Source: a filamentous cyanobacterium Phorm 6
Lineage (GTDB): Bacteria; Cyanobacteriota; Cyanobacteriia; Cyanobacteriales; Microcoleaceae
Length of the DNA: 35,022 nt
Assembly (NCBI GenBank): GCA_003003725.1
Contig: PVWI01000028.1
Span: 1 to 35,022 of the forward strand
Direction: 5' to 3'
The notes beneath the pieces were generated by a model that was not told the DNA's origin, made no database searches, and saw only the letters and a list, made by a program, of their open reading frames with translations. A program made the translations under genes and the position numbers. The stretch's first letter is position 1; every line of letters begins with the position of its first letter. Below are positions 10,137 through 32,689 of the stretch, in pieces.

Positions 10137-10925
10137 ATGATTTCTATCCAAAATCAAATTGTTTTCATTACAGGTGCGAGTAGCGGTATTGGAGCAGCCT
10201 GTGCCAAGATATTCGCCAAAGGTGGAGCGAAATTAATTTTAGCAGCCCGCCGCCTTGAAAAGCTCGATCGACTGGCAAACGAACTTGTAGAAACAAAATC
10301 GATCGCCTCGGCGAACCAGATTTATTTGCTAGAATTGGACGTGCGCGATCGCCCGCAAGTCGAATCGGCGATAACAGCGCTTCCCGATGCCTGGAAAAAC
10401 ATCGATATTCTGATTAACAATGCCGGATTGAGCCGGGGTTTAGACAAACTGCACGAAGGCAACTTTCAAGATTGGGAAGAAATGATTGATACCAATGTGA
10501 AAGGCTTGCTTTACATGACTCGCTACATAGTACCGGGAATGGTCAGCCGAGACCGCGGCCACGTAGTCAATATCGGCTCAATAGCAGGCCGCCAAGCTTA
10601 CCCGAAAGGTAGTGTTTATTGCGCTTCCAAAGCAGCGGTGAGAGCGATTTCTGATGGGTTGAAACAAGACCTTTTGGGAACACCCGTGCGGGTGACGGAA
10701 ATAGAACCCGGTTTGGTGGAAACAGAATTTAGCAATGTCCGGTTTCACGGCGATGCAGAAAAAGCGAAGAATGTCTATCAAGGACTGACACCTTTGACGG
10801 CGGATGATGTAGCCGATGTAGTATATTTTTGCGCGACGCGATCGCCCCATGTCAATATTAGCGAAGTCTTGCTAGTTCCGACAGACCAAGCTACCGCAAC
10901 TCTGGTTCACCGCAAAGAGTTTTGA
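10137..10925 (+). CDS. Short-chain dehydrogenase/reductase (YdfG-like)
   Basis: The 262-residue protein is a classical SDR using NAD(P)H. It has the cofactor motif TGASSGIGAAC (about residues 11-21), the structural NNAG motif, the catalytic Ser (NIGSIAGR) and the YCASK Tyr/Lys pair, and the PG motif IEPGLVETEF after the active site. The AARR after the third strand suggests NADP(H) preference. It resembles the YdfG group, which oxidises 3-hydroxy acids such as serine, but substrate cannot be assigned by eye. The gene is preceded by heptamer repeats and followed by the seven-unit array. Confidence 0.9.
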   Translation: MISIQNQIVFITGASSGIGAACAKIFAKGGAKLILAARRLEKLDRLANELVETKSIASANQIYLLELDVRDRPQVESAITALPDAWKNIDILINNAGLSRGLDKLHEGNFQDWEEMIDTNVKGLLYMTRYIVPGMVSRDRGHVVNIGSIAGRQAYPKGSVYCASKAAVRAISDGLKQDLLGTPVRVTEIEPGLVETEFSNVRFHGDAEKAKNVYQGLTPLTADDVADVVYFCATRSPHVNISEVLLVPTDQATATLVHRKEF

Positions 10926-10977
10926 GTTTTCAGCGGCGATTGTCCGGATGGCGATGGAATTTTTGGGAAGCTTAATT

Positions 10978-11031
10978 GGTAGATGCACCCTGATTAATTA
11001 ACTCCCGACCAATTTTGGCCGGGTTTTTTTT
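10978..11031 (+). ncRNA. Array unit 1: candidate small RNA
   Basis: The core is canonical (hairpin 11004-11023, eight T at 11024-11031). The upstream block is the most divergent: only TTGTCCGGATGG and CTTAATTGG recall the consensus, so this unit may lack its own promoter. Confidence 0.4.
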
Positions 11032-11112
11032 GGTTGATCGCACTTTCGCCACAAATTCCCCGAATTTTTCAAACTGTCCTGAATGTGGTGCTGTTGAGCC
11101 GGAGATTAAATT

Positions 11113-11168
11113 AGTAGATGCACCCTGATTAATTAACTCCCCACCAATTTTGGTTGGGAGTTTTTTTT
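11113..11168 (+). ncRNA. Array unit 2: candidate small RNA with rebuilt stem
   Basis: Here the stem is AACTCCC (11135-11141) with GGGAGTT (11156-11162), seven perfect pairs, then one mismatch and ACCA/TGGT. The base changes on both sides relative to the other copies keep a stable hairpin, which argues for selection on structure. Eight T follow. Confidence 0.5.
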
Positions 11169-11273
11169 GGCGCGATCCTCTGCGAGGGCTTCGCCAACGA
11201 GCTTTCGACACAAATTCCCCCAAATTTTCCGAAACTGTCCTGAAGAAGGTGCTGTGGATGCGGAGATTAAATT

Positions 11274-11326
11274 AGTAGATGCACCCTGATTAATTAACTC
11301 CCGACCAATTTTGGCCGGGTTTTTTT
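11274..11326 (+). ncRNA. Array unit 3: candidate small RNA
   Basis: Closest to the consensus, with the full upstream block (AAACTGTCCTGAAGAAGG, then GCGGAGATTAAATT). The hairpin is at 11300-11319 and is followed by seven T. Confidence 0.5.
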
Positions 11327-11419
11327 GTCGATCCTCTGCGAGGGCTTCGCCAACGAACTTTCGTCACAAATTCTCGCAAATTGTCCTGAAAGAGGTACTG
11401 TGAGGCGGGAGATTAGATT

Positions 11420-11474
11420 AGTAGATGCACCCTGATTAATTAACTCCCGACCAATTTTGGCCGGGTTTTTTTTT
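11420..11474 (+). ncRNA. Array unit 4: candidate small RNA
   Basis: The hairpin at 11446-11465 is followed by nine T, one of the two longest tracts in the array. The presumed -10 reads TAGATT. The spacer behind it differs from the others: it carries another common intergenic repeat (CATCCGCGTTAATCTGCG) instead of the GATCCTCTGCGAGGG element. Confidence 0.5.
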
Positions 11475-11587
11475 GCGTATTGCCCAAAATCCCAAACATC
11501 CGCGTTAATCTGCGTGAATCAGCCTTGATCAGCGGTTAAAAATCAAATTCATCCTGAAAGAGGCTTGCAGATACCGGAGACTTAATT

Positions 11588-11642
11588 AGTAGATGCACCC
11601 TGATTAATTAACTCCCGACCAATTTTTGGCCGGTTTTTTTTT
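11588..11642 (+). ncRNA. Array unit 5: candidate small RNA
   Basis: The loop has one extra T and the 3' arm has lost one G (GGCCGG), but CCG/CGG pairing remains; nine T follow. The upstream block is diverged (TTCATCCTGAAAGAGGCTTG). Confidence 0.45.
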
Positions 11643-11745
11643 GCCGATCCTCTGCGAGGGCTTCGCCAACGAACTTTCGCCACAAATTCTCGCAAATTCT
11701 CGCAAACTGTCCCGAAAGAGGTGGTGTGGAAGCGGAGACTAATTT

Positions 11746-11798
11746 AGTAGATGCACCCTGATTAATTAACTCCCGACCAATTTTTGGCCGGGTTTTTT
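11746..11798 (+). ncRNA. Array unit 6: candidate small RNA
   Basis: The hairpin at 11772-11792 has a five-T loop and six T behind it, the shortest tract of the array. The upstream block is well conserved (AAACTGTCCCGAAAGAGG). Confidence 0.45.
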
Positions 11799-11963
11799 AT
11801 TGGGCGATCCTCTGCGAGGGCTTCGCCAACAAACTTTCATGTCAAATCCATTAGTATACGAACTATTTATCCCTCCCTTCTTTTCCTCTGCGCTCTCTGC
11901 GCCCTCTGCGGTAAAAAATCCAAACTGTCCTGAAACAAGCTCGCACCTAGCGGAGACTAATTT

Positions 11964-12017
11964 AGTAGATGCACCCTGATTAATAAACCCCAGCCAATTT
12001 TGGCCGGGGTTTTTTTT
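11964..12017 (+). ncRNA. Array unit 7: candidate small RNA and shared terminator
   Basis: This terminal copy has a longer stem (AAACCCC at 11985-11991 with GGGGTTT at 12006-12012), which is symmetrical enough to work on both strands. It lies 28 bp beyond the stop of the minus-strand gene at 12045, so it can serve as that gene's terminator as well. Confidence 0.5.
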
Positions 12018-12044
12018 GATTGAAAATTGGATTAACCCATGAGG

Positions 12045-12266
12045 CTAAAGCGCCTTAAAAGACTGCACTTCAAGCACCGGGCCAATCATCGCAAAAGTCA
12101 TCACATCCTTACGGACTTCACCTGTGACACTAACTTTCAAATCAGCTTTTTTTAACTCAGAAGGAGCATCCTTAAGTTCGTAAGTTTCCCCATCTTCGCC
12201 AACCAAAGCCCAAGTGCCCGGGCCCAATCCTTTACGTTCAATTACACCTTTGACAGTAATACTCAT
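12045..12266 (-). CDS. Small conserved-looking protein coupled to the S8 protease
   Basis: The 73-residue product (MSITVKGVIERKGLGPGTWALVGEDGETYEL to EVQSFKAL) is beta-rich, soluble and without signal peptide. Its alternating pattern and the VTGEVRKDVMTFAMIGPVLEV segment suggest a small OB-like barrel, but I recognise no named family with certainty. Its ATG overlaps the TGA of the protease gene (12263-12266), so it is translationally coupled and likely made in fixed proportion. A role as partner or regulator of the protease is possible but only inferred from position. Confidence 0.75.
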   Translation of the reverse strand: MSITVKGVIERKGLGPGTWALVGEDGETYELKDAPSELKKADLKVSVTGEVRKDVMTFAMIGPVLEVQSFKAL

Positions 12267-14032
12267 GCCGATCGCACCTCTGTTTTAATTGCTAGACGCG
12301 CCAGTCCGAAACACAGCAAAGCATTGACAATCAAGAATGATTGTGCTACCAAACCAGTTCCCAATCCCCAGACTGCGGGAGACACAAAAGCATTCACGGC
12401 TAAACTGCTGGCAAAGCCGATCGAAATGGCGATCGCGATCCACTTCCACTGTTGATGTCCCAACAGCAAAGCAATCAAAATCCCTGGAATCAAAACACTC
12501 GCAAACAAGGGATTCAGCATACTACTGCCGTTAATTGCGCCACCGAGTTCGGGAATAGAACTACCCATCAGGCGCATCGGCCACTGCGGCAGGTCAAATA
12601 CAAACAGATTTCGCAGCCCGAAGAACCCAGAACTGCCAGCAATCAAGCCGCCGGAAAAGCCCCAAGTCCACGCAAAGGGGAAATAATTCCGCATAAAGAA
12701 AGCCAGCAGATAGGAACCGAGCACCATTCCAATCTTAGGTAACAAGGCGACTGCACCGCCGTCGATCCAGAAACGCGGACTCAGATAGCCGTTGTCGCGC
12801 AACCAGCGGAAGAAATCGCGGAAGTTGATTTGTCCGCGCTGGGCTAGCTGAACTGCTGCGGCTGCGTCGAGGTTCCCGGCGCCAAAATGGTTTAGCGGAT
12901 CTTCGCTGACAACTCGGGCTGATTGCAAGAGTACGCTGCGAATTTCGTCTGGTTCTGTGATACCGGAGGCTTTAATCAGGGCTGCAACGGCGGCAACGTG
13001 GGGAGATGCCATGCTGGTACCTTGGTAGCCTTCAAAAATTTCTGCACCGGTTTCTGGGTCGATCGTACTTTGCAGAATCTTGCCATTTTCCGAACCGCCG
13101 GGGGCAGAAATATCAACTCCCGCGCCGAAGTTGGAGTAACCAGCTTTTTCGTCGTCTGGGCCGAGGGCAGAAACGCCGATGACGTGGGGATAGCGGGCGG
13201 GATAGGAAGCGGAACTATCGCCGGAGTTGCCTGCGGCTGCGACGATTACAACGCCTTTAGAGTGCGCGTAGTCGATCGCCTCTGCCATTAACTGACTTTC
13301 GCCACCGCCGCCTAAACTCATGTTGATCACATCTGCGCCGTTGTCAGCAGCAAATTTAATTGCTTCAGCGATGTCGGAAACCGTGCCGCCACCGCTGCCG
13401 CTTAACACTTTTAGCGGCATTAAAGCTGCTTCGTAGGCAATGCCTGCAACGCCGTAATTGTTGTTAGTTGATTGGGCGACTGTACCGGCGACGTGAGTAC
13501 CGTGGCCGTTGTCATCGTAGGCTTCGGCACGATCGTTTACAAAGTCGTAGCCCGGTACGAATTTGGTTTCTTTTAAGTCCGCGACGGGAGTAATTCCCGT
13601 GTCAATTACCGCTACTGTTGTGCCGCTGCCTTTGGTTTCATTCCAAGCGGCTTCTACGTTGATACTGCGCAGATTCCACTGCTTGTTATACATGGGGTCA
13701 TTCGGAATCTCGAAGATGTTGTAGACGTAGTTTGGTTCAATGTATTCGGTATCTTTAGCGAAATTTGATTTTCTCAGGGCGTTTAGCAAAGTGCGATCGC
13801 CCTTAACTACATATACATTGTCGCCCGCTGAGAATTCGCTGTTGAGTTGTGGTGCGATTTTGTACTGCTGGGCGATCGTTTCTACTTGTTTTGCAATCTC
13901 AGCATTACCGATATCTTCGCGGAAATCCAGCACAATCGAGTCATAAGTGCCTTGAGTAGCCAGTCCTGGGAAATTAGAAATTGCCCAGCCGAGCCCGATT
14001 AAGAATAAGCACAGAAGGAAAAATTTTTTCAT
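12263..14032 (-). CDS. Subtilisin-like (S8) serine protease with C-terminal membrane segments
   Basis: The 589-residue protein starts with a signal peptide (MKKFFLLCLFLIGLGWAIS). A possible propeptide/I9-like region follows (about 30-105, ending YIEPNYVY), then an S8 catalytic domain. The triad is visible: Asp144 in VAVIDTG, His177 in NGHGTHVAG, Ser340 in GTSMASPHVAA, with oxyanion Asn269 in AAAGNSG. After residue 400 there are about five hydrophobic segments, so the protease domain is probably tethered to a membrane and faces the periplasm or thylakoid lumen. The ATG at 14032 is preferred to one 33 bp upstream because it begins directly at the signal peptide. It forms a coupled pair with the 73-residue gene. 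The substrate is unknown. Confidence 0.9.
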   Translation of the reverse strand: MKKFFLLCLFLIGLGWAISNFPGLATQGTYDSIVLDFREDIGNAEIAKQVETIAQQYKIAPQLNSEFSAGDNVYVVKGDRTLLNALRKSNFAKDTEYIEPNYVYNIFEIPNDPMYNKQWNLRSINVEAAWNETKGSGTTVAVIDTGITPVADLKETKFVPGYDFVNDRAEAYDDNGHGTHVAGTVAQSTNNNYGVAGIAYEAALMPLKVLSGSGGGTVSDIAEAIKFAADNGADVINMSLGGGGESQLMAEAIDYAHSKGVVIVAAAGNSGDSSASYPARYPHVIGVSALGPDDEKAGYSNFGAGVDISAPGGSENGKILQSTIDPETGAEIFEGYQGTSMASPHVAAVAALIKASGITEPDEIRSVLLQSARVVSEDPLNHFGAGNLDAAAAVQLAQRGQINFRDFFRWLRDNGYLSPRFWIDGGAVALLPKIGMVLGSYLLAFFMRNYFPFAWTWGFSGGLIAGSSGFFGLRNLFVFDLPQWPMRLMGSSIPELGGAINGSSMLNPLFASVLIPGILIALLLGHQQWKWIAIAISIGFASSLAVNAFVSPAVWGLGTGLVAQSFLIVNALLCFGLARLAIKTEVRSA

Positions 14033-14289
14033 GGCCGATCGTCCGTGTAGGGAAGGCTTGTTCACTACAATAACCCAATTTTCACCGCTGATGCCAGTTT
14101 TACGGGCGGCGGGTGCTGGATGACTTGCGGGCGGGCGTTTGGTATTTGGCGATGGTGGCTGCCCGTGCGATCGCCCGTAGCTCTACTTTTTCGTTGAAAT
14201 TGCCTCGTCGAGTCTGAGAAGTTCAATCAATTGTATGATTAGAGTAGATGGCAAACAGAACAAGCGAGTTTTTTTAACAAGGATATTGC

Positions 14290-17753: not shown

Positions 17754-20306
17754 TTATTTGTCCGAAACTCCAACCAGAGCCTTTTCATGCTCATAAGCAG
17801 GGCGAGTTTGTCCCCGTTCCTCAACACGAACAATACTCGGATCTGGCAAATCGGAATTCACAAAATGCTGGAACCGCTGCACCTTTTGCGGGTCTTCAAT
17901 CGTCGTTTTCCACTCGCACTGATAAGTATTCACCAAATGTTCCATCTGCGCTTCTAGCTCAGCACAAATGCCCAGAGAATCCTCAATTATCACCTGCTTC
18001 AAGTATTCAATCCCGCCCTCAAGCTTATTAAACCATGTAGCAGTACGTTCCAGGCGATCGGCAGTGCGGATGTATAAGATTAAAAAGCGATCGACATACT
18101 TAATCAAAGTTTCCTTATCGATATCAGACGCTAGCAAAACTGCGTGCTGCGGCTTCATCCCACCATTGCCGCACACATACAAATTCCAACCATTCTCAGT
18201 CGCAATAATTCCAAAATCCTTGCTTTGAGCTTCCGCGCATTCGCGAGTGCAGCCAGAGACAGCAGACTTGAATTTGTGAGGAGCTCGCAAACCGCGATAA
18301 CGCAATTCAACCTCGATCGCCAAACTCGTCGAATCCTGCACCCCAAAGCGGCACCAAGTGCTACCAACACAAGATTTTACCGTCCGTAAAGCCTTACCAT
18401 AAGCGTGTCCTGACTCAAATCCCGCATCGATCAACCTGCGCCAAATTAGGGGCAACTGATCCACACGCGCCCCAAACAAATCGATCCGTTGCGCCCCAGT
18501 AATCTTAGTATAAAGCCCAAAATCCTTAGCAACTTCTCCCAAAACAATCAACTTATCCGGCGTAATTTCTCCACCCGGTACTCGCGGCACCACCGAATAA
18601 GTACCGTCGCGCTGAATGTTTGCCAAATAGTAATCATTCGTATCTTGCAAACCGACGTGAGACTTCTCTAGAATATGGTCATTCCAGGTAGAAGCCAGCA
18701 TCGAAGCAACAGCCGGCTTGCAAATTTCGCAGCCGTGGCCTTTGCCGTGTTGTGCGATCGTCTCGTCAAAGCTTTTCAGCTCTTGAGAGCGCACCAAATG
18801 GTACAATTCTTGACGGGAATACTCAAAATGTTCGCAGAGGTGATTCTTGACTGCAAACCCGGCTTTCTTCATCTCCGACTTAAAGATATCCGTCACCAAA
18901 GGCACGCAGCCGCCGCAACCAGTACCAGCTTGAGTGCATTTCTTGACGCTGGGGACATCAGTTAAATTGCGATCGCGAATCGCCTCACAAATCTGTCCTT
19001 TACTAACATTATTGCAAGAACAAATTTGAGCCGAATCAGGCAAACTATCCACACCAAAACCAGCAGGTGCTCCACCTTCTCGCGGTGGTATCAACAAATC
19101 TTCAGGATGTGGCGGCAAAGCAATATCATTTTGCATGAATTGCAGCAGAGTACCGTAAGCAGAAGCATCTCCCACGAGAATACCGCCTAAAATCCGGCTA
19201 CCGTCTTGATTTAAAACTAATTTTTTGTAAATGCCTTGGAAAGTGTCAGCCACCACAATTTCTTTAGCATCCGCAGACTTGGCAAAAGCATCACCAAAAC
19301 TAGCAACGTCCACTCCCAAAAGTTTGAGTTTCGAGGACATATCCGCACCTGTAAAAGTGCTAGTGCTGGCATCTGCTGCACTGCTCAAAATATCCGCTGC
19401 GACGCTGGCCATCGTATACCCAGGCGCAACTAAGCCGTAGATCCGATTTTGATAAAGTGCGCATTCGCCGATCGCATAAATATCAGAATCAGAAGTTTGG
19501 CAGCTATCATTAATCACAATACCGCCGCGTTCACCTACTTCTATCCCAGAAGTTCTAGCAATTTCATCGCGCGGGCGAATACCAGCCGAAAACACAATCA
19601 TATCCGTTGCCAATTCCGAACCATCAGCAAACAGCATTTTAGTAACTTTGCCATCTTCGCTGACAATTTCGGTAGTAGATTTGCTGGTGTGAACCGAAAC
19701 CCCCAACTCTTCAATTTTGCTGCGAAGAATCGCACCGCCAACCTCATCAACTTGTACAGGCATCAGTCGCGGCGCAAACTCAACCACATGAGTTTTCAAA
19801 CCCATATTTTGCAGAGCATTGGCACATTCCAAACCCAACAAACCGCCGCCAATTACTACACCAACTTGGCAATTTTTAGCGTGCTCTGACATCGCCTCCA
19901 AGTCGTCAATTGTCCGGTAAACGAAAGTGCCAGCAGTATCTTTGCCTTTGATCGGCGGTACAAATGGATAGGAACCGGTGGCGAGGACAATTTTGTCGTA
20001 GGGAACCTCTAAACCGTTGGCTGAAAAGACTGTTTTTTGTTCCCGATTGATAGCGACTGCTTTGTCGCCGATATGAATTTCAATGCCGTTTTCTTGATAA
20101 AATCCTGGTGCAACTAGAGATAAATCTCCCGCTGTTTTGCCAGAGAAAAATCCGCTGAGATTTACGCGATCATAAGCAACGCGCGGTTCTTCACAAAAAG
20201 TAATTAAATTCCAGTTTTTGGCAGCATCCAAGCTCACCATTAACTCTAGGAATTTGTGACCTACCATGCCATTGCCGATTACAATCAGGTTTTTTTTGGC
20301 TGTCAT
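17754..20306 (-). CDS. nirB: Nitrite reductase (NAD(P)H) large subunit NirB
   Basis: NirB reduces nitrite to ammonium with electrons from NAD(P)H through FAD, iron-sulfur and siroheme centres. The 850-residue protein matches the E. coli length (847). In order it has the FAD domain (LIVIGNGMVGHKFLE, residues 7-21), the NAD(P) domain (VGVVIGGGLLGLECANAL, about 148-165), a BFD-like [2Fe-2S] module (CSCNN near 427 and CTQAGTGCGGC about 35 residues later), a second C-x2-C module (HGCEICKPA), and the siroheme/4Fe-4S part with CVGSTWCRFG near 643 and SGCTRECAEAQSKDFG near 684. It stands behind a clear NtcA-type promoter, indicating nitrogen control and assimilatory use. No nitrate transporter or narB gene is in the window. 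Confidence 0.96.
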   Translation of the reverse strand: MTAKKNLIVIGNGMVGHKFLELMVSLDAAKNWNLITFCEEPRVAYDRVNLSGFFSGKTAGDLSLVAPGFYQENGIEIHIGDKAVAINREQKTVFSANGLEVPYDKIVLATGSYPFVPPIKGKDTAGTFVYRTIDDLEAMSEHAKNCQVGVVIGGGLLGLECANALQNMGLKTHVVEFAPRLMPVQVDEVGGAILRSKIEELGVSVHTSKSTTEIVSEDGKVTKMLFADGSELATDMIVFSAGIRPRDEIARTSGIEVGERGGIVINDSCQTSDSDIYAIGECALYQNRIYGLVAPGYTMASVAADILSSAADASTSTFTGADMSSKLKLLGVDVASFGDAFAKSADAKEIVVADTFQGIYKKLVLNQDGSRILGGILVGDASAYGTLLQFMQNDIALPPHPEDLLIPPREGGAPAGFGVDSLPDSAQICSCNNVSKGQICEAIRDRNLTDVPSVKKCTQAGTGCGGCVPLVTDIFKSEMKKAGFAVKNHLCEHFEYSRQELYHLVRSQELKSFDETIAQHGKGHGCEICKPAVASMLASTWNDHILEKSHVGLQDTNDYYLANIQRDGTYSVVPRVPGGEITPDKLIVLGEVAKDFGLYTKITGAQRIDLFGARVDQLPLIWRRLIDAGFESGHAYGKALRTVKSCVGSTWCRFGVQDSTSLAIEVELRYRGLRAPHKFKSAVSGCTRECAEAQSKDFGIIATENGWNLYVCGNGGMKPQHAVLLASDIDKETLIKYVDRFLILYIRTADRLERTATWFNKLEGGIEYLKQVIIEDSLGICAELEAQMEHLVNTYQCEWKTTIEDPQKVQRFQHFVNSDLPDPSIVRVEERGQTRPAYEHEKALVGVSDK

Positions 20307-32509: not shown

Positions 32510-32539
32510 GTATTATTTGTAGGGCGAGTTTTTGATCTA

Positions 32540-32662
32540 GGTTTGTAGTGAGGACTTTAGTCCGCATCAAGAAGGACTGAAGTCCTCATTACGAACCTAT
32601 AATAGGTTTGTAGTGAGGACTTTAGTCCGCATCAAGAAGGACTGAAGTCCTCACTACGAACC
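32540..32662. repeat. Two tandem MITE-like inverted repeats
   Basis: Two nearly identical 58-bp elements (32540-32597 and 32605-32662; GGTTTGTAGTGAGGACTTTA ... GTCCTCAYTACGAACC) lie end to end with a 65-bp period. They belong to the same family as 17679-17741. Each folds into a hairpin. Together they occupy most of the gap before the sugar permease gene. Confidence 0.9.
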
Positions 32663-32689
32663 TAGAGTAATTACTAATTACGAATTATT

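Follow-up and report, generated by a model that had tools for sequence, protein, structure and literature searches.

The window, i.e., the whole stretch of 35,022 nucleotides analysed here, which is one whole contig of a genome of 6.64 Mb in 526 contigs, carries seven tandem head-to-tail units (RNA parts at 10977-12018) that are with near certainty copies of the small RNA NsiR1, at a place orthologous to the hetF-linked nsiR1 locus: the right flank is shared, the left flank differs, and hetF is gone. As the best overall explanation, we consider it probable that these are seven separately transcribed NsiR1 genes driven by HetR and HetZ and acting antisense in trans. The whole feature spans about 10943-12018, its first promoter box starting at 10943, and is arranged with its neighbours as follows:

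10137..10925, + strand: left neighbour, a short-chain dehydrogenase (SDR; Pfam adh_short), a lineage-specific left flank
10943..10948, + strand: DIF1 box TCCGGA of unit 1, an exact match, 34 nt ahead of the Rfam start of unit 1
10977..11031, + strand: NsiR1 unit 1, RF02399 48.5 bits (cut-off 39)
11112..11168, + strand: NsiR1 unit 2, RF02399 52 bits; upstream DIF1 TCCTGA; rebuilt, stronger terminator stem (fold z -3.25)
11273..11328, + strand: NsiR1 unit 3, RF02399 43.8 bits; upstream DIF1 TCCTGA
11419..11474, + strand: NsiR1 unit 4, RF02399 47.1 bits; upstream DIF1 TCCTGA
11587..11641, + strand: NsiR1 unit 5, RF02399 40.6 bits; upstream DIF1 TCCTGA
11745..11801, + strand: NsiR1 unit 6, RF02399 43.4 bits; upstream DIF1 TCCCGA
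11963..12018, + strand: NsiR1 unit 7, RF02399 57.2 bits, the best match; upstream DIF1 TCCTGA (fold z -2.84)
12045..12266, - strand: right neighbour, a 73-aa ORF (ORF73) with tblastn matches to NsiR1 loci of several families
12263..14065, - strand: right neighbour, an S8 subtilase with DUF5942 (Pfam), conserved beside NsiR1

The Rfam model of NsiR1 (RF02399) matches all seven units at 40.6-57.2 bits, over its curated cut-off of 39 bits, and the E-values for this window (6.7e-9 to 8.5e-5) exclude chance. No other Rfam family reached its gathering threshold in the window, including Yfr2 and Yfr1. Yfr1 resembles the array units in being a short regulatory RNA of cyanobacteria whose single-stranded pairing segment is conserved. 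In the genome as a whole, nine NsiR1 matches were found, i.e., the seven array units and two solitary copies. An earlier note on this DNA, made from its letters, had rightly compared the array with NsiR1; it also supposed that the array may be new, which the seven Rfam matches contradict. The RNA family is known, and the novelty lies in the orthology of the locus and its uncoupling from hetF, and possibly in a link with the HetZ group.

In every unit a promoter block is followed by the leader, then by a hairpin and a T-tract, and successive unit starts lie 135, 161, 146, 168, 158 and 218 nt apart (range 135-218 nt), the seven copies forming a tandem array. This bears out the multicopy small-RNA locus of the earlier note, each copy with its own promoter, leader and terminator, down to the TAAATT-like -10 regions and the T-tracts. 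The better conservation of leaders than of spacers that it described was likewise recovered: mean pairwise identity among the seven units is 97% in the leader (minimum 89%), 79% in the hairpin part and 78% in the -10 region, as opposed to 40% in the promoter spacer and 34% far upstream. The small indels that it had held against a protein are present, and no ORF longer than 83 aa lies within the array. The stem of unit 2 is indeed rebuilt, as is that of unit 7, although these changes were read from individually folded units and are thus partly circular and not taken as proof of covariation. Only these two units, with fold energies of -15.6 and -17.1 kcal/mol, beat all 200 shuffles, while the other five (-6.7 to -10.7 kcal/mol) fold no better than 200 shuffles (z -0.24 to -0.98). 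Separately, an identical 20-nt element, TCCTCTGCGAGGGCTTCGCC, stands in four of the array spacers (11176-11195, 11332-11351, 11648-11667 and 11808-11827) and resembles an interspersed repeat.

DIF1 (TCCGGA at -35, one mismatch allowed) is described in passages of PMC6133370 as the mark of heterocyst-type promoters, including PnsiR1. With at most one mismatch it stands in register before all seven window units, as TCCGGA once, TCCTGA five times and TCCCGA once. Across 96 loci, 277 of 290 units have it in the six-base window starting 40-35 nt before TAGATG, a count that falls outside the patterns used to pick the loci; eight control six-base windows gave 0-18 matches in seven cases and 71 in one (around -22), the latter because CCGGA-like letters fall in the -10 block. 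The proportions are similar for loci found with the Rfam model (122/127 units) and with the exact leader pattern (155/163 units). Transcription of the array is very probably driven from these DIF1 promoters. Exact-pattern matches in two Gastranaerophilales stretches (L068 and L089) and in a lactobacillus (L087) lie outside photosynthetic cyanobacteria and were taken as chance: the former two are 80% identical over 6.3 kb and gave no counted unit, the match in L089 lying inside a long ORF, and the lactobacillus unit, which is without DIF1, was kept among the 290. In the leader, the part conserved family-wide is GTAGATGCACCCTGAT and not TTAACTCCC (93 loci, with a bias from the choice of loci and units). 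The latter, proposed earlier as the pairing segment, is less well conserved, and most of it serves as the 5' arm of the terminator in units 2 and 7.

The neighbouring genes had been called unrelated and convergent. However, in Nostoc-type genomes ORF73 (without NCBIfam match) and the subtilase are likewise neighbours of the nsiR1 array at hetF, and two of these genomes (G111 and G168) have the array between a divergent hetF (in G111 with 1370 bits to NF045509) and the same ORF73 and subtilase. The order hetF<- NsiR1-> <-ORF73 <-subtilase recurs in 21 of 50 stretches (in L124 with a gap of 5 kb), and these belong to six families (f8, f11, f14, f20, f21 and f33; labels are the tool's own, f1 being the family of the window and f33 the one called Nostoc-type because of its hetF-linked arrays and best Rfam scores). 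Outside the order, hetF-NsiR1 adjacency was seen in one of six stretches (L274) from five genomes. Arrays with 4-11 copies lie between the same two genes in eight stretches (the window with 7, L091 with 10, L045 with 6, L058 with 4, L059 with 5, L064 with 6, L080 with 11 and L082 with 7), and the SDR gene adjoins the array not only in relatives but also in contigs named as Microcoleus, Tychonema and Lyngbya. The nearest named proteins beside arrays come from Microcoleus, Tychonema, Kamptonema and Lyngbya contigs, with SDRs 88-97% identical; for the metagenome isolate PMM_0080, identity is 99% for the subtilase, 100% for ORF73 and 96% for the SDR. A HEARO RNA was also seen between NsiR1 array and ORF73 of one Nostoc-type genome (L090:7282-7501).

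Among 40 genomes sampled from the window's family, NsiR1 is present in all and hetF in 39, and NsiR1 occurs within 800 nt upstream of hetF in none of the 30 genomes (of 39) whose hetF starts were read, these having been found through hetF. The distance between hetF and the array is about 11 kb in G033, a relative with a complete genome. Outside this family, antisense NsiR1 lies at most 800 nt upstream of hetF in 28 of 30 genomes (all but G154 and G047), counted per genome in stretches that had been found through NsiR1, which favours adjacency. No conserved trans site was found in the hetF upstream region of the window's family. One candidate, an 8-nt match in the host genome, was rejected, being absent from the sister species and reached by 2-3 of 60 shuffles; in another genus (L155 and L156) a 9-nt match upstream of hetF (0/60 shuffles) was not taken as a conserved site.

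The host of the array looks like Microcoleus, which is non-heterocystous, and probably makes no heterocysts, in line with which its genome has no match to the HetP family. It encodes HetR (L105:5878-6828; Pfam HetR_C and S48) and, directly upstream on the same strand, a PatX of 75 aa with RGSGR (NF047413, 39.7 bits, cut-off 30), whose ATG is preceded by TCCTGA at 58 nt, as well as HetZ (NF037963, 633 bits, cut-off 550). Its HetF-like protein (L132:5130-6806 on contig C106, an ORF of 577 aa) matches the HetF model NF045509 with 627.7 bits, below the cut-off of 1200, and only over positions 1-386, the N-terminal part. HetF-like open frames measure 575-592 aa in seven of the nine genomes of the genus listed and 785-786 aa in the other two.

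NsiR1 co-occurs with HetR and with HetZ-type proteins. In 195 genomes of the order, NsiR1 is over cut-off in 125 and HetR_C (PF18460) present in 113; both occur in 111, NsiR1 only in 14, HetR only in two and neither in 68, i.e., 179 genomes agree, and BLAST with the host's HetR detected no HetR in the 14 NsiR1-only genomes. In 194 genomes of the phylum, a sample overlapping with the former, HetR was found in 46 and NsiR1 (E <= 0.001) in 50, 44 of them over cut-off. Compared by eye, all 46 HetR genomes are among these 50, two of them (G029 and G053) with sub-cut-off NsiR1 only, and the four NsiR1 genomes without HetR are also below cut-off. A closely matching HetZ-type protein (best E below 1e-100, a threshold set by us, matches falling either below 1e-140 or between 1e-26 and 1e-17), in a set that includes a paralogue (HetZ-related), was found in 122 of the 195 genomes and agrees with NsiR1 in 190: 121 have both, four (G045, G151, G177 and G186) NsiR1 only, and one (G189) the HetZ-type protein only. 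At its own curated cut-off, HetZ is found in 99 of 195 genomes and agrees with NsiR1 in 169, below the 179 of HetR, and 26 of the 125 NsiR1 genomes are without it. The statement that HetZ tracks NsiR1 better than HetR does was thus rejected for strict HetZ and is true only for the wider group (190 versus 179). In five f31 genomes, the HetZ-type match falls short of the HetZ cut-off and may belong to the separate family HetZ-related (NF037964).

Where HetR and the close HetZ-type protein disagree (13 genomes), NsiR1 follows the HetZ-type protein in 12, although independent events are few because f31 alone supplies nine of the 13. The two genomes with HetR and without a HetZ-type protein have a sub-cut-off NsiR1 match only. 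DIF1 promoters have been published as depending on HetZ (PMC7377430), with which this pattern agrees, but only as a correlation of a widened group. As a further observation, HetR went undetected in the f31 genomes L099, L100, L101 and L103, where NsiR1 is kept, mostly with DIF1-like boxes.

The two solitary copies differ in their promoters. Locus B (L002) carries DIF1 and occupies, in antisense orientation, the gap that separates lgt from a TP-methylase (rsmI-like) gene, its Rfam start 24 nt before the methylase start, with similar spacing in seven of eight family relatives read (not in L191); NsiR1 recurs with lgt and the methylase in f21 (L142) and with the methylase in f32 (L140). Locus C (L093:6864-6940 on contig C196), between serS and a glycosyltransferase (GT4) gene, is without DIF1 and has instead two GGGN5CCC palindromes and a TATACT -10. 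Copies of its type were found in nine of 20 further family stretches, mostly beside serS (DIF1-less class in L184, L186-L188, L192, L193, L195, L201 and L203), and in four genomes of the genus the locus C copy lies on the contig of hetR, at 12-21 kb. GGGnnnnnCCC is given in PMC4192349 as the core required by HetR in crystal structures, and HetR may bind the palindromes of locus C.

Under the explanation preferred here, the array would have stayed beside ORF73 and the subtilase by descent, with hetF having been moved away in the window's family. Each copy would yield its own RNA of about 55 nt, switched on from its DIF1 promoter by the HetR-HetZ cascade, probably when nitrogen is limiting and perhaps in individual cells of a filament, and ended at a Rho-independent terminator; the many copies may serve dose. 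NsiR1 of Nostoc, with its DIF1 promoters, is reported in passages of PMC9045159 to repress hetF and alr3234 post-transcriptionally, the pairing with alr3234 covering the start codon. By analogy, the leader GTAGATGCACCCTGAT would pair with mRNAs at or near start codons and block their translation. Since hetF no longer adjoins the array, any effect of the array on hetF or on other genes would have to be exerted in trans, and antisense action of this kind appears likely. The known Nostoc targets do not carry over, because there is no NsiR1 near hetF (0/30), no conserved trans site there and no HetP-family match in the host genome. Candidate targets are instead the mRNAs of patU and of the TP-methylase, whose start region is complementary to the leader, although for any target named here the case is doubtful at best.

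The leaders of all seven units pair with the start region of the TP-methylase at -30.2 to -34.7 kcal/mol, and none of 200 shuffles was as good for unit 1. This match exists because the NsiR1 of locus B is antisense there, and is therefore no proof, by itself, that the array acts in trans, as it may do on this mRNA. When 28 start regions of the host genome were screened, patU (named by its place only, as the ORF after hetZ, and without NCBIfam match) came next best after the TP-methylase. Complementarity to the leader over 8 or more contiguous bases occurs just upstream of the patU ATG in 25 of 51 distinct hetZ-patU junctions, as compared with 25 of the 2831 other windows taken from these stretches (68 junctions were read, of which 11 without an ATGAA[TC][AG] start and six identical windows were dropped). 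The site is strongest in f33 (10-11 nt in seven of eight), amounts to no more than a 7-nt run in the host genome, is weak in its sister G033 (z -2.0, 5/200 shuffles as good) and is missing in several genomes (e.g., L205, L209, L240 and L244). The stretch overlaps the 3' end of hetZ and perhaps also the real start of patU, which makes coding constraint a serious alternative, and the patU site is best described as a candidate, enriched but unproven. It would make sense in that PatU3 restrains HetZ and is cut by HetF, as stated in PMC12288457, although the NsiR1 and patU passages of that paper name no such target. In 50 of the 51 distinct junctions (e.g., L211, L206 and L207), the ATG of patU is also preceded by a TCC[GT]GA box that begins exactly 22 nt ahead of it, a placement seen also where hetZ stops earlier; this box is possibly part of an internal DIF1 promoter, with a -10 that overlaps the start of patU.

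The array could also be a decaying leftover of an ancestral heterocyst-type circuit, weakly transcribed or untranscribed and functionless in this host, as the uncoupling from hetF, the absence of a HetP-family match, the short HetF-like protein below its family cut-off and the weakness of several terminators would suggest. We nevertheless regard such decay as improbable: leaders identical at 97% between units beside a promoter spacer at 40% and far upstream DNA at 34%, DIF1 retained in all seven units, the eight stretches in which 4-11 copies are flanked by the same two genes, and NsiR1 in 40 of 40 sampled family genomes all speak against it. The tandem DIF1 sites, with a box conserved where the spacer is not, would equally suit a role of the DNA itself, the cluster titrating HetZ or its partner and the RNA being a by-product. 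Yet it is the transcribed leader, and not the box, that is most conserved, each unit is followed by a terminator-like hairpin and T-tract, and in Nostoc the RNA itself acts (passages of PMC9045159), all of which makes titration quite unlikely.

Spread by transposition, the units being termini of a mobile element, had been raised in the earlier note as scattered single copies. Solitary copies do exist elsewhere in the genome, and four spacers have the 20-nt element in common, but the solitary copies each have a promoter of their own, and in relatives copies are found at three conserved places (hetF/ORF73, lgt/TP-methylase and serS/GT4); the array showed no inverted repeats, and a scan of ten neighbouring proteins gave no transposase domain. 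We give this origin almost no credence.

The nearest known system is NsiR1 of Nostoc (Anabaena) sp. PCC 7120, with which the seven genes share the RF02399 family, the tandem arrangement, a DIF1 promoter per copy, the terminator, and ORF73 and the subtilase on the right (as read in the Nostoc-type genomes L090 and L094). In contrast, there are seven copies here and 12 in PCC 7120; the PCC 7120 array lies beside hetF, whereas this one does not and has no copy antisense to hetF; and the present host is probably non-heterocystous. A divergent hetF with an antisense upstream copy, a trait of many NsiR1 members that lies outside the definition of the RNA family, was not found here. After GTAGATGCACCCTGAT, the leader continues with TAATTAACTCCC here and with AACTAACTCCCC in L090. 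A published precedent from a non-heterocystous filament with hetR is the NsiR1-like RNA162 of Limnospira indica PCC 8005, which is reported as one 57-nt RNA, and the passages available of PMC8400943 describe no array. No report of the present array or of an NsiR1-HetZ link was found in the parts of the literature searched, the founding NsiR1 papers being outside that scope. From the orthology of the locus, NsiR1 looks older than heterocysts.

A wider joint reading, which we hold only tentatively and think rather unlikely in its entirety, would make NsiR1, instead of an invention of heterocyst formers, an ancient output of the HetZ/DIF1 circuit in filamentous cyanobacteria, with the HetZ group (HetZ or the closely related HetZ-related), rather than HetR, as its usual partner; it would include a loop through a conserved hetZ-patU target, in which NsiR1 would lower PatU, which restrains HetZ, together with, in Microcoleus-type filaments, an array freed from hetF and acting wholly in trans and a serS copy directly controlled by HetR. 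If true, it would offer a handle on HetR and HetZ in filaments without heterocysts; the roles of hetR and patX in non-heterocyst species "remain a mystery", in the words of a passage of PMC11298460. An RNA with a DIF1 promoter, if expressed in such organisms, would be a ready reporter of when and in which cells the circuit fires, and natural experiments on the regulator that reads DIF1 are provided by the NsiR1 genomes without HetR and by the two HetR genomes without a HetZ-type protein.

Elsewhere in the window, an 850-aa protein encoded at 17754-20306 (- strand) resembles a NirB-type nitrite reductase in its domains (pyridine nucleotide-disulphide oxidoreductase, BFD-like and nitrite/sulphite reductase), and a 65-nt unit occurs in two tandem copies, 98% matching, at 32538-32664.
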